Shown piece by piece: positions 57,703 through 60,676 of a stretch of DNA of 64,000 nt. The stretch is from Sinorhizobium mexicanum (GTDB lineage: Bacteria > Pseudomonadota > Alphaproteobacteria > Rhizobiales > Rhizobiaceae), in contig NZ_CP041238.1 in the NCBI RefSeq assembly GCF_013488225.1, positions 2,753,501 to 2,817,500 of the forward strand, in the 5' to 3' direction. Under the pieces are notes generated by a model. The model had not been told where the DNA came from. It did not search any database and saw only the letters and a list, made by a program, of their open reading frames with translations. A program made the position numbers and the translations under genes. Positions within the stretch are counted from its first letter, which is position 1; the number at the start of each line of letters is the position of its first letter.

Positions 57703-58911
57703 TCAGACCTTCACGAGCATCGCCGTCCCGTACATGAAGGCGACGCCCGTCGTCAGCCCTGCGATCGTGGCCGGCGCGAGGAGCGCCGTTGTCCCACGTC
57801 CGTCGGACCGCATCAGATAGGCGGCGACCTCGACTATGACCTGCAGTATGGCTCCCGCTCCGACTGCCAGAGCCAGGGCCGACCATTGTGGCGCGTAGGC
57901 AAGGCTGCCGATCCAGAGACCGACGACGGCGGGTCCTCCGGCGAGCAAGGCCAGCGCCGCAAAGATCCAGAGCGCCGGCCGCTTCTTCAGCAGCGGCGCC
58001 GAAATTCCGATGCCTTCGGTGATGTTGTGCGCCATGAACCCCAGCACCAGGAACGAGCCCAAACCCGCCGCTCCTGCCGCGAAGGCCGCACCGATTGCCA
58101 ACCCTTCGCCGAGATTATGGAGGCCGATGCCGAGCGCGATGAAGGTTGCAAGCGCCACCCCGCTCGGCGCGCCCTGACGTCTGCCGACTGCCATCAGCAA
58201 AAGGAAGCTGGCGGCCGCCGCAAGCCAGACCATCGCCTGCCCCTGGAAGATGGCCGCCGCCTCGCCCGCCAGCTCGAACGCTTCTGCCGTGGCATCGACG
58301 AGAAGGAACGCCAGCAGCCCGACGGTCAGTGCGAGCAGGAAATCCATGCCGTCACGGCCGACGCCACGGAGGGCGGGATAGAACATCATTCCGATCGTCA
58401 CGGGTACGAACCCGACAAAGACGCCGAGCAGCGCTTGCGACAGAAGGCTCGTGGCGTTGTGCGCCGGCGTCGGCACGGCGACTGCGATTTCATGCTCGAA
58501 CGTCGCCCCAGTGTTGGTGACGATGTTGATCGCGTGCGCCTCCCCCAGCACCCACGGGAACGGCAAATGAATCCAGGCCGTCGACCCACGGCTGATCGGC
58601 CCGGGCGGATCCTGCGTGAACTGCCAATAGGCGTCGTCGACCTGGACCTGGGCGATCGTCATCGGCTCCGAACCGCCGGCGCGGACGAGGACGCGGATAC
58701 CGTCATCCGACAGGATCGTCCGCTCGAAGGTCAGGGTTTCGACAGGTGGGGCGCCATTGCCGAAGCGCTGCAACGGATTGGTAACCACAAGCCAGACGAT
58801 CGCCAGGCCAAGTGCGGCCATGGGCAAAATGAGCCACAGCAGCGCCGCACGGGATTTGCGCGCCGGGCCGGCGGTCTGGTCGGCTGCCGTTATGCGGGAG
58901 ACCTCGTTCAT
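57703..58911 (-). CDS. ZIP-family metal permease with extracytoplasmic N-terminal domain
   Basis: 402 residues. One helix (LLWLILPMAALGLAIVWLVV, ~25-45), then a ~100-residue beta-rich extracytoplasmic domain (LTFERTILSDDGIRVLVRAG...HEIAVAVPTPAH), then about eight helices with both ZIP metal motifs: GIGLHNLGEGLAIGAA and MAHNITEGIGISAP. ZIP proteins import divalent metals such as Zn, Fe or Mn. The start overlaps the multicopper oxidase stop (ATGA), so the two proteins are made together; an MntR-like regulator is divergent. Metal specificity is not shown by sequence, but the regulator points to Mn or Fe. Confidence 0.85.
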   Translation of the reverse strand: MNEVSRITAADQTAGPARKSRAALLWLILPMAALGLAIVWLVVTNPLQRFGNGAPPVETLTFERTILSDDGIRVLVRAGGSEPMTIAQVQVDDAYWQFTQDPPGPISRGSTAWIHLPFPWVLGEAHAINIVTNTGATFEHEIAVAVPTPAHNATSLLSQALLGVFVGFVPVTIGMMFYPALRGVGRDGMDFLLALTVGLLAFLLVDATAEAFELAGEAAAIFQGQAMVWLAAAASFLLLMAVGRRQGAPSGVALATFIALGIGLHNLGEGLAIGAAFAAGAAGLGSFLVLGFMAHNITEGIGISAPLLKKRPALWIFAALALLAGGPAVVGLWIGSLAYAPQWSALALAVGAGAILQVIVEVAAYLMRSDGRGTTALLAPATIAGLTTGVAFMYGTAMLVKV

Positions 58912-60029
58912 GCGATCGCCTCCACGACATCAAACATGCCCGACCAGCCGAGTTCGGTGAACTCCGATTGGTGCGGATGGAACATGTAGAGGCCGGGCTC
59001 GTGGTCCTTGAACGAAAATTCGATGATGCCGCGCTGGGCCTGGCACTGGGTGATCAGGTCCACTGTCTTGAGGGTCGGTGCCAGGGTCGTTCCCTGGTCG
59101 AAATAATCGAAGAAATTGCCGTGCAGGTGGAACGAGTTGATCGGGTCGAATTCGACGATGTTGGCAAGATAAATGCGAACCGGCCTGTCCCGCACGATCC
59201 GGATCGGCCGCTTCATGTAGGCATGCGCGACCGTGTTCACCGCGTAGACTTCGTTCTCGTTGTCGAAATTGGTGTCGAAGCCGTTCATCACCATGGCGAA
59301 TTCCTGCCACTCGGCGTTTTCCGGCGTGCCGAGAAGGCGGGAACGGGCAATGTCGGTGAGCTCTGGATGCCTGGCGGGATCGGGGTCGATGACGAAAAGG
59401 CCGTACATGCCCTTCTGGATGTGCCGCTTCAGCGGAAGCGCATGGCAGTGGTAGAGATGGCAGCCGAACGGCCGCGCGTCGAATTCGTACACGAACTCGT
59501 CGCCGGGATCGATCAGGCCCGCGCCGGGAACGCCGTCCATGCGCGCCGCGTGAATGCCATGGAAATGCATTGAATGAGGGTGCGAACCCAGGTTCCTGAA
59601 GACGATCCGTAGCCGGTCACCCTCGGTCGCCCGGAGCGAGGGGCCGGGCACGCGCCCGTTATAGGTCCACGCCGGGAACATGATCCCGGGCGCAATTTCG
59701 ATTTCCCTGTCGATCGCCTCCACTTCGAATGTACGAAGGTTCCGGCCGTCGGGCAGCCGGGAAACGGTACCCGTATCCCACTCCGTCAGCAGCTTCGCGG
59801 TCTCGAAACCATTGCGCGCTTCATCGACGTCACCGACGGTGATCATCGCTCCGTGGGCCGAACCATGGCCCAGCAAGGGCGAAGCGGCCGTATGCGCTGA
59901 ATGGCCGGCCGAATAGTCTGATTGAGCGAGCGACGATCCACTCGCACAGATCACGCTCCCACCGGCAGCCGAAACGCCGCCCCAGAGCAGTCCACGTCTG
60001 GTGATTTCAAACGGCCCCCATTTGGTCAT
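58908..60029 (-). CDS. Two-domain multicopper oxidase, Tat-exported
   Basis: 373 residues. Twin-arginine signal (EITRRGLLWGG) and a His-rich stretch after it (AGHSAHTAASPLLGHGSAHG). Copper sites: HPHSMHFHG (H152, H155, H157), HLYHCHALPLKRHIQKGM (H191, H194, C195, H196, H203, M208 with type 1 Cu ligands), FHLHGN (H301, H303) and MFHPHQSEF (H351, H353). With two cupredoxin domains and the type 1 site in domain 1, it is a small-laccase-like oxidase, probably trimeric. It oxidises a substrate such as Mn(II), Fe(II), Cu(I) or a phenol using O2 in the periplasm. Operon with the ZIP permease; divergent MntR-like gene. Confidence 0.88.
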   Translation of the reverse strand: MTKWGPFEITRRGLLWGGVSAAGGSVICASGSSLAQSDYSAGHSAHTAASPLLGHGSAHGAMITVGDVDEARNGFETAKLLTEWDTGTVSRLPDGRNLRTFEVEAIDREIEIAPGIMFPAWTYNGRVPGPSLRATEGDRLRIVFRNLGSHPHSMHFHGIHAARMDGVPGAGLIDPGDEFVYEFDARPFGCHLYHCHALPLKRHIQKGMYGLFVIDPDPARHPELTDIARSRLLGTPENAEWQEFAMVMNGFDTNFDNENEVYAVNTVAHAYMKRPIRIVRDRPVRIYLANIVEFDPINSFHLHGNFFDYFDQGTTLAPTLKTVDLITQCQAQRGIIEFSFKDHEPGLYMFHPHQSEFTELGWSGMFDVVEAIA

Positions 60030-60082
60030 GCGGGCACTCCATCGTTAGTACGATCAAATAAAATAAGCACAAGACAGGAAAT

Positions 60083-60096
60083 ATAGCAATGGCTAA
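60083..60096. promoter_or_regulatory. MntR-type operator, copy 1 (before multicopper oxidase)
   Basis: ATAGCAATGGCTAA, 54 bases before the oxidase start. It is the exact reverse complement (14 bases) of copy 2 and has internal arms TAGC/GCTA around four bases. Confidence 0.7.
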
Positions 60097-60149
60097 GTCA
60101 TGAGACAGGGTCCGGTTCGATGCGCGGGAGTTCACAGGGTGAGACATTT

Positions 60150-60163
60150 TTAGCCATTGCTAT
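60150..60163. promoter_or_regulatory. MntR-type operator, copy 2 (before the regulator)
   Basis: TTAGCCATTGCTAT, 43 bases before the regulator start and inverted relative to copy 1, so each copy faces its own gene. Confidence 0.7.
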
Positions 60164-60205
60164 GATTTCGACAGAGGCCTACGATGTCGCGCAAGGAGCC
60201 ATACG

Positions 60206-60676
60206 ATGTCCGACCAGACAGCCAGATCTGAAGAGATCACGATGCCCCTCATCGACCCGGAAACCCAGGTCGAGAGCTTCCGCCAGACCCGGAGCAACCG
60301 GCGGACGGAGCTTGTCGAGGACTATGTCGAGCTGATTGCCGACCTGATCGATGACAACGGTGAGGCAAGGCAGGTCGAGATCGCGCAGCGGCTTGGCGTT
60401 GCCCAGCCAACGGTGGCGAAAATGCTGAAGCGGCTGGCCGCCGAAGAATTGATCGTCCAGCGGCCGTACCGTGGCGTTTTCCTGACGGCCGCCGGACGGG
60501 AAATCGCCGAAAGGTCAAAGGCGCGCCACGAGATCGTCGTCTCGTTTCTCCTCGCGCTGGGCATCAGCCCAGCCACCGCCCGCATCGATGCCGAGGGCAT
60601 CGAGCACCACGTCAGCGACGAAACGCTCGAAGCCTTCGGGCGCTACATCCGCCGCGCGGACCGCAAGGCGCAGTAA
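60206..60676 (+). CDS. mntR: MntR/DtxR-family metalloregulator
   Basis: 156 residues, MntR length. Winged [43 protein letters not shown] and [20 protein letters not shown]; dimerisation/metal half with [20 protein letters not shown] (Glu and His of the Mn/Fe site). These proteins bind Mn(II) or Fe(II) and repress metal uptake genes. The paired 14-base sites between it and the oxidase indicate that it controls both itself and the oxidase-ZIP operon. ATG at 60206 with AAGGAG seven bases before. The N-terminal ~30 residues are a low-complexity extension. Confidence 0.88.

Follow-up and report, generated by a model that had tools for sequence, protein, structure and literature searches.

A multicopper oxidase and ZIP permease pair with MntR-type operators in Sinorhizobium mexicanum is probably a little-known manganese import route

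What would an exported copper oxidase do when it is encoded together with a ZIP permease and next to a manganese-type regulator? The question is raised by a stretch of 64,000 nucleotides of the Sinorhizobium mexicanum genome (assembly GCF_013488225.1, contig NZ_CP041238.1, positions 2,753,501 to 2,817,500), referred to here as the window, in which a multicopper oxidase (MCO) gene and a ZIP-fold permease gene lie beside a divergent mntR. Our results indicate that the pair is probably a little-known route of manganese import. We propose, with a probability of about 0.6, a manganese-acquisition module in which manganese-loaded MntR would repress both the MCO-ZIP operon and mntR, the genes being expressed when manganese is scarce. 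The features on which this rests are as follows (window positions).

57703 to 58911, minus strand: gene for the ZIP-fold permease, 402 amino acids, with one N-terminal transmembrane (TM) segment, an exported beta-sandwich domain and then an 8-TM ZIP domain.
57709 to 58455, minus strand: the 8-TM ZIP domain of the permease, residues 153-401.
58471 to 58755, minus strand: residues 53-147 of the permease, an exported N-terminal beta-sandwich and candidate oxidase-docking domain.
58908 to 60029, minus strand: gene for the two-domain MCO, 373 amino acids, with the type 1 (T1) copper Cys195 in domain 1 and the eight trinuclear-cluster His intact.
59994 to 59999, minus strand: twin arginine R11 R12 of the Tat-type leader of the MCO; both columns are invariant in a 38-sequence alignment.
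60080 to 60088, minus strand: extended -10 TGC-TATATT on the MCO side, read from the sequence and overlapped by a box.
60083 to 60096, minus strand: predicted MntR box facing the MCO-ZIP operon, one inverted copy of a 14-mer.
60150 to 60163, plus strand: predicted MntR box facing mntR, the other inverted copy.
60158 to 60166, plus strand: extended -10 TGC-TATGAT of mntR, found by promoter scan and overlapped by a box.
60206 to 60676, plus strand: mntR, the divergent DtxR-family regulator of MntR type, 156 amino acids, matched by profile NF008273.

All three genes lie where the first-pass annotation had placed them, and the features it described, an ATGA overlap of MCO and ZIP on the minus strand and a divergent MntR gene on the plus strand, were borne out. 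The gap between MCO and mntR is 176 bases.

To place this locus among its relatives, 90 loci were compared: the best 80 of at least 577 from a genome scan and 10 hand-picked plasmid loci, with one record in both. The MCO gene was directly before the ZIP gene in all 90, and by annotation in five further plasmid loci too. An ATGA or GTGA overlap joined the two in 72 of the 80 loci. A class-wide sample of 289 genomes, the present one included, was searched with thresholds of E <=1e-50 for the MCO and E <1e-100 for the permease; both genes were found in the same seven genomes (again including this one) and were adjacent in each of them. Weak permease matches only, which we took for ordinary ZIPs, occurred in six other genomes of the class and as an additional gene in one of these seven. 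Sequence distances between MCOs and between ZIPs, available for 87 of the 90 loci, were correlated with r = 0.93, a value that is uncorrected for shared ancestry. The MCO and the ZIP form a unit. It is unevenly distributed (13 of 33 genomes sampled from the genus and 5 of 398 genomes of a phylum sample, this genome counted in both), and the plasmid matches span Alphaproteobacteria, Cyanobacteria, Actinomycetota, Bacillota and Halobacteria.

The regulator of the window scored 232.5 bits against NF008273 (cut-off 153) and 169.6 bits against the MntR structure 2h09, which we take to be that of E. coli. Its residues D39, E42, H108, E130, E133 and H134 align with 8, 11, 77, 99, 102 and 103 of MntR 1on1 at a constant offset of 31, positions that we assume to be the metal ligands. 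By profile and by these predicted ligands, it is an MntR of the E. coli type.

The gap contains a 14-base word and its reverse complement, neither of which is found a second time in the window. This inverted pair, one copy facing each gene, had been pointed out in the first-pass annotation, and it exceeds chance: when the gap was shuffled 1000 times with dinucleotides preserved, no inverted repeat was longer than 10, against the exact 14-mer observed. The word is nearly palindromic, with the pattern WTAGC-N4-GCTAW, and presumably close to the E. coli MntR box. A promoter scan returned a single match, at 60139-60166 on the mntR side, where 0.3 were expected. Each box covers a -10 hexamer, TATATT towards MCO and TATGAT towards mntR.

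The form WTAGCN4GCTAW is found six times in the whole 7.14 Mb genome, two of them in the gap. The four remaining sites were rejected as MntR targets and treated as chance, being in or beside open reading frames unlike manganese transport (judged by eye apart from one). One of the four (L123, 1611-1624) shares bases with the start codon of a gene for methionine sulfoxide reductase (1617-2129, PF01625); it is probably there by chance and possibly a second MntR target. A genome-wide scan allowing one mismatch gave 93 matches, and its noise was too high for use.

In each of the 90 loci, the roughly 420 bases preceding MCO were then scanned for the same boxes, against a background of 0.017 per 450 bp. 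At one mismatch or less a box was present in 35 of the 36 loci with a neighbouring MntR and in 17 of the 54 without; this MntR was divergent in 36 of 36. Taking as a -10-like hexamer any with at least 5/6 identity to TATAAT towards MCO, a box lay on it in 14 of the 16 loci that have two or more boxes (the two-box type) and in 0 of the 20 other MntR-neighbour loci (14/36 overall), of which 19 have a single box and one has none. Among 32 other sampled genomes of the genus, 12 carry the pair, all 12 with the divergent MntR and both boxes (one box with one mismatch), and in this second set the MCO-side box lay on a -10-like hexamer in every locus. The three-gene arrangement, whose survey the first-pass annotation had proposed, is kept in all same-genus carriers found; over all 90 loci MntR is the neighbour in 36.

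A whole-genome test used 48 carrier genomes drawn from 50 of the 80 loci, 47 of them with upstream DNA. The exact box was found in 24 of 31 genomes with MntR and in none of 16 without (Fisher p 1.6e-7, kinship uncorrected), and at one mismatch or less in 30/31 and 3/16. In eight genomes, several of them Mesorhizobium, MntR is not at the locus but beside Nramp elsewhere, and the exact box is still upstream of MCO. Control of MCO-ZIP by MntR through the paired operators, as first suggested from the window, is strongly supported by this cross-genome footprinting as a prediction from sequence.

The loci without MntR share a different site, TGCRAATNATTYGCA, which we take to be a Fur/Mur-type operator. 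This palindrome, defined after the sequences had been inspected, occurred at two mismatches or less in 15 of the 16 MntR-minus genomes, in 3 of the 31 MntR-plus genomes and nowhere in 489,026 bp of flanks. Because of its post hoc definition, 18 additional loci (12 same-genus and six others) were examined. No Fur/Mur palindrome was found in the 12 same-genus loci. The six others have no MntR in their short stretch; the palindrome is present in four, both types of site are missing from one, and the last has no upstream DNA. In the present genome a sitA-like gene is preceded by a similar palindrome, with two mismatches to the core. Most of these Alphaproteobacteria thus have the pair behind one or the other of two types of manganese-uptake site.

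In known cases, genes with a -10 under an MntR or Mur site are uptake genes. With such a site over the -10 and a ZIP permease as product, the simplest reading is therefore manganese import during manganese starvation. When manganese is sufficient, manganese-loaded MntR would bind the two boxes in the 176-base gap, cover both -10s and repress the operon and mntR. When it is scarce, the operon would be on, and a Tat-exported two-domain MCO and the ZIP permease would be made. The first-pass annotation had left open whether the system controls import or storage. Import fits; storage fits poorly, because both boxes of the window overlap -10s, as for a repressor acting when manganese is plentiful. 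From the operator evidence we thus expect an importer that is switched on when manganese runs short; storage and detoxification are disfavored.

The same geometry bears on the idea that the MCO is a manganese oxidase, performing Mn(II) oxidation for detoxification or mineral formation while the ZIP supplies or recovers manganese. The label "manganese oxidase" given by JGI to 3 of 120 oxidase homologues among the matches listed, and the name of one carrier, Pseudaminobacter manganicus (L063), speak for it. The boxes lie on the -10 in the window's lineage, as for repression by manganese, and the genes would therefore be off at high manganese; moreover, the enzyme of the window has two domains and is unlike the MnxG- and MoxA-type oxidases. 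We consider this explanation very improbable.

This genome has one MntR, sitAB-like and znu genes, and no match to Nramp was found in it; for these reasons the pair is read as a second route here. Nramp is also present in 30 of the 48 carrier genomes, which rules out the replacement of Nramp by ZIP as a rule. Given this co-occurrence and the sitAB-like and znu genes of this genome, the pair can be no more than one importer among several.

This last point weighs against manganese acquisition as the role of the pair, as do the late definition of the palindrome and several other results. The exact box is missing in 7 of the 31 MntR-plus genomes, and one of these MntR-plus loci (L058) has no box at one mismatch and a Fur/Mur site instead. 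The repressor geometry is limited to the two-box lineage of the window, since the single-box loci have no box on a -10. In the same genomes, the DNA between MntR and Nramp has weaker boxes (exact in 3/18, at one mismatch or less in 7/18, and at two or less in 15/18, where the background is 0.36 per 480 bp). Neither an MntR box nor a Fur/Mur site was found in the six non-alphaproteobacterial plasmid loci L019-L024, and no manganese regulator is annotated beside the pair in several loci outside Alphaproteobacteria. A P-type ATPase signature lies within 15 of the 80 loci. Finally, manganese-responsive Mur sites and iron-responsive Fur sites cannot be separated by sequence here.

The Fur-type palindromes of the MntR-minus loci are also what an iron module would show. 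Under this explanation the MCO acts as a ferroxidase, the ZIP serves to import or recapture iron, Fur, Mur and DtxR act as iron regulators with MntR secondary, and the pair is a bacterial equivalent of Fet3-Ftr1. Members of the ZIP family carry Fe(II), and a match to the Fur-family neighbour of Microvirga was seen in 9 of the 90 locus rows (8 distinct records). Against iron, MntR is the neighbour in more than a third of the loci, as counted above, and in Arthrobacter, Rubrobacter and Halobaculum the pair has a DtxR-family regulator of MntR-like kind next to it; these regulators score better against the MntR than against the DtxR model, all below the cut-offs. In R. leguminosarum, the Fur-like regulator Mur represses sitABCD and mntH in response to manganese (PMC5575495). 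Overall, we regard an iron module as unlikely.

The permease has the 8-TM ZIP fold. Its H265, N266, E269, G270 and H295, N296, T298, E299, G300, which provide the metal-binding H-N-x-x-E motif of two helices, are invariant in 11 of 11 aligned homologues. Zip is the only Pfam family that it matches, at 25.8 bits, below the cut-off of 35.1; among five relatives scanned, L021 and L022 passed this cut-off and three were below. We call it ZIP-fold, of a divergent branch, because fold and metal sites are present though the score is under the Pfam cut-off. It has in common with BbZIP and ZupT the TM fold and the H-N-x-x-E-G sites, a motif of ZupT. It differs from them in an extra N-terminal TM segment and an exported beta-sandwich, and in the 11 aligned sequences the HNxxEG motifs lack the Pro that is usual in ZIPs.

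The extra exported domain could be a docking site for the oxidase. No MCO-ZIP fusion that would speak for contact was seen among the compared loci. Long open frames upstream of ZIP were rejected as fusions: they were out of frame with MCO, and in loci with the same frame they closed within 45 codons upstream.

In the MCO, H155, H157, H194, H196, H301, H303, H351 and H353 are invariant in the 38-sequence alignment, and by analogy we assign them to the trinuclear cluster. C195, H152 and H203 of domain 1 are invariant as well, and the corresponding motif of domain 2, FHPH, has no Cys, so that T1 copper is placed in domain 1 only. The axial M208 is replaced by Leu in some homologues. The enzyme is thus a two-domain MCO with T1 in domain 1 (presumably the "type C" of the usual naming) and with its copper ligands intact, as an enzyme that reduces oxygen would need, and oxidase activity is predicted. 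It matched 7rab of M. hydrothermalis with 560.7 bits and 3gdc with 322.2 bits. The 3gdc chain matches by eye the plasmid MCO of Arthrobacter FB24 (L022), which is directly upstream of a ZIP. Both structures, 7rab being a dodecamer, belong to the same two-domain enzyme family; unlike for the MCO of the window, no link to a transporter or to manganese regulation was found for them in the material examined.

The M. hydrothermalis enzyme is said to show laccase activity (PMC10673308), which agrees with a copper or laccase module: the oxidase would detoxify Cu(I) or oxidize phenols and the ZIP would move metal for unrelated reasons. The P-type ATPase signature mentioned above (DKTGT), for which one example is a Pfam-confirmed heavy-metal ATPase, and a cluster with a PCu(A)C example in 11 of the 80 loci also favor it. 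This module is nevertheless less likely than the iron one, since the operators resemble manganese-regulator sites and overlap with ZIP is the rule; 65 of the 80 loci have no P-type ATPase signature in the stretch examined, some stretches being short.

Some loci encode further proteins next to the pair. TatA is directly 3' of ZIP on a Cytobacillus plasmid (L126, 5156-5332), and TatA and TatC follow MCO-ZIP after one small gene on a Peribacillus plasmid (L021, 6719-7682), as though the module came with its own export machinery. A Rieske-type 2Fe-2S protein is encoded after or near MCO-ZIP in cyanobacterial, Rhodococcus and Rubrobacter loci (L019 6155-6586, L023 6185-6604, L125 5103-5549, L020 6835-7296), and a plastocyanin-like protein in Halobaculum (L127, 5192-5554). 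Together, the Tat genes of the two Bacillaceae loci and the Rieske and plastocyanin-like genes of cyanobacterial, actinobacterial and haloarchaeal loci suggest partners in export and electron transfer.

Within the manganese-acquisition module, the job of the oxidase is the least certain part. Most likely, and with modest confidence, we prefer metal oxidation at the mouth of the ZIP: the exported domain would hold or receive the oxidase, which would act there on a periplasmic metal, Fe(II) or Mn(II). Oxidation would either make the substrate or stop Fe(II) and Cu(I) from competing with Mn(II). Repression by manganese, import of Mn(II) and docking are steps that we infer. A stronger proposal, which we put forward tentatively and consider doubtful, is an oxidase-gated manganese importer. 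The oxidase docked on the exported domain would oxidize Mn(II), or Fe(II) as a selectivity filter, in a manganese counterpart of Fet3-Ftr1 that has spread, both chromosomally and on plasmids, among bacteria and haloarchaea and is, in many hosts, under whichever manganese regulator is present.

Several side observations concern the operators and gene order. The second operator layout, a single box of the TTAGCC..GCTAA type with no -10-like hexamer, was seen in L025, L079, L080, L084, L093, L095-L099, L102, L105-L108, L110-L112 and L115, all with a divergent MntR. In L030, L032 and L033, from the same class, MntR is downstream of ZIP on the same strand, so that the three genes may form a single MCO-ZIP-MntR operon. 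The pair, the divergent MntR and both boxes are present in Pseudaminobacter manganicus JH-7, whose species name refers to manganese. At 60030-60079 of the window, between the MntR box and the start of MCO, there is a second conserved stretch that recurs upstream of MCO in L018, L026, L059 and L071. By eye it has GTGCT or ATGCT some 12 bases further along and a word resembling GCTAA close to the start; neither MntR nor Fur/Mur accounts for it. Elsewhere in the window, an ordinary-looking TauE/SafE-family transporter gene (PF01925; 54606-55436, minus strand) lies beside a ketol-acid reductoisomerase gene (PF07991; 55780-56880, minus strand).

Exported copper or redox proteins encoded with a metal permease are known from iron uptake: Fet3-Ftr1 in yeast, and FtrABCD and EfeUOB in bacteria. 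The pair resembles them in this design and differs in its ZIP fold, which is not FTR1/OFeT, its two-domain MCO and its MntR or Fur/Mur-type site. It is not a member of the Fet3-Ftr1 group and at most an analogue, because the permease has a ZIP fold and matches only Zip in Pfam. With MntR-MntH and Mur-SitABCD of Alphaproteobacteria it shares the regulator and similar types of operator, and repression by manganese is expected here too; the permease is of another family and an oxidase is added. The first-pass annotation knew of no described system with this gene set, and no description was found in the open-access literature searched, which does not prove absence. Oxidase-permease uptake is already known for iron; a ZIP-based form under manganese control would be new.

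If the proposal is true, rhizobia and their relatives would have a third kind of manganese importer beside SitABCD and MntH, and its manganese uptake would draw on oxygen and copper. For the oxidase branch, which has two solved structures and no physiological role in the literature examined, the link to a ZIP permease and to operators of the manganese-uptake type gives a specific proposal that is cheap to test.

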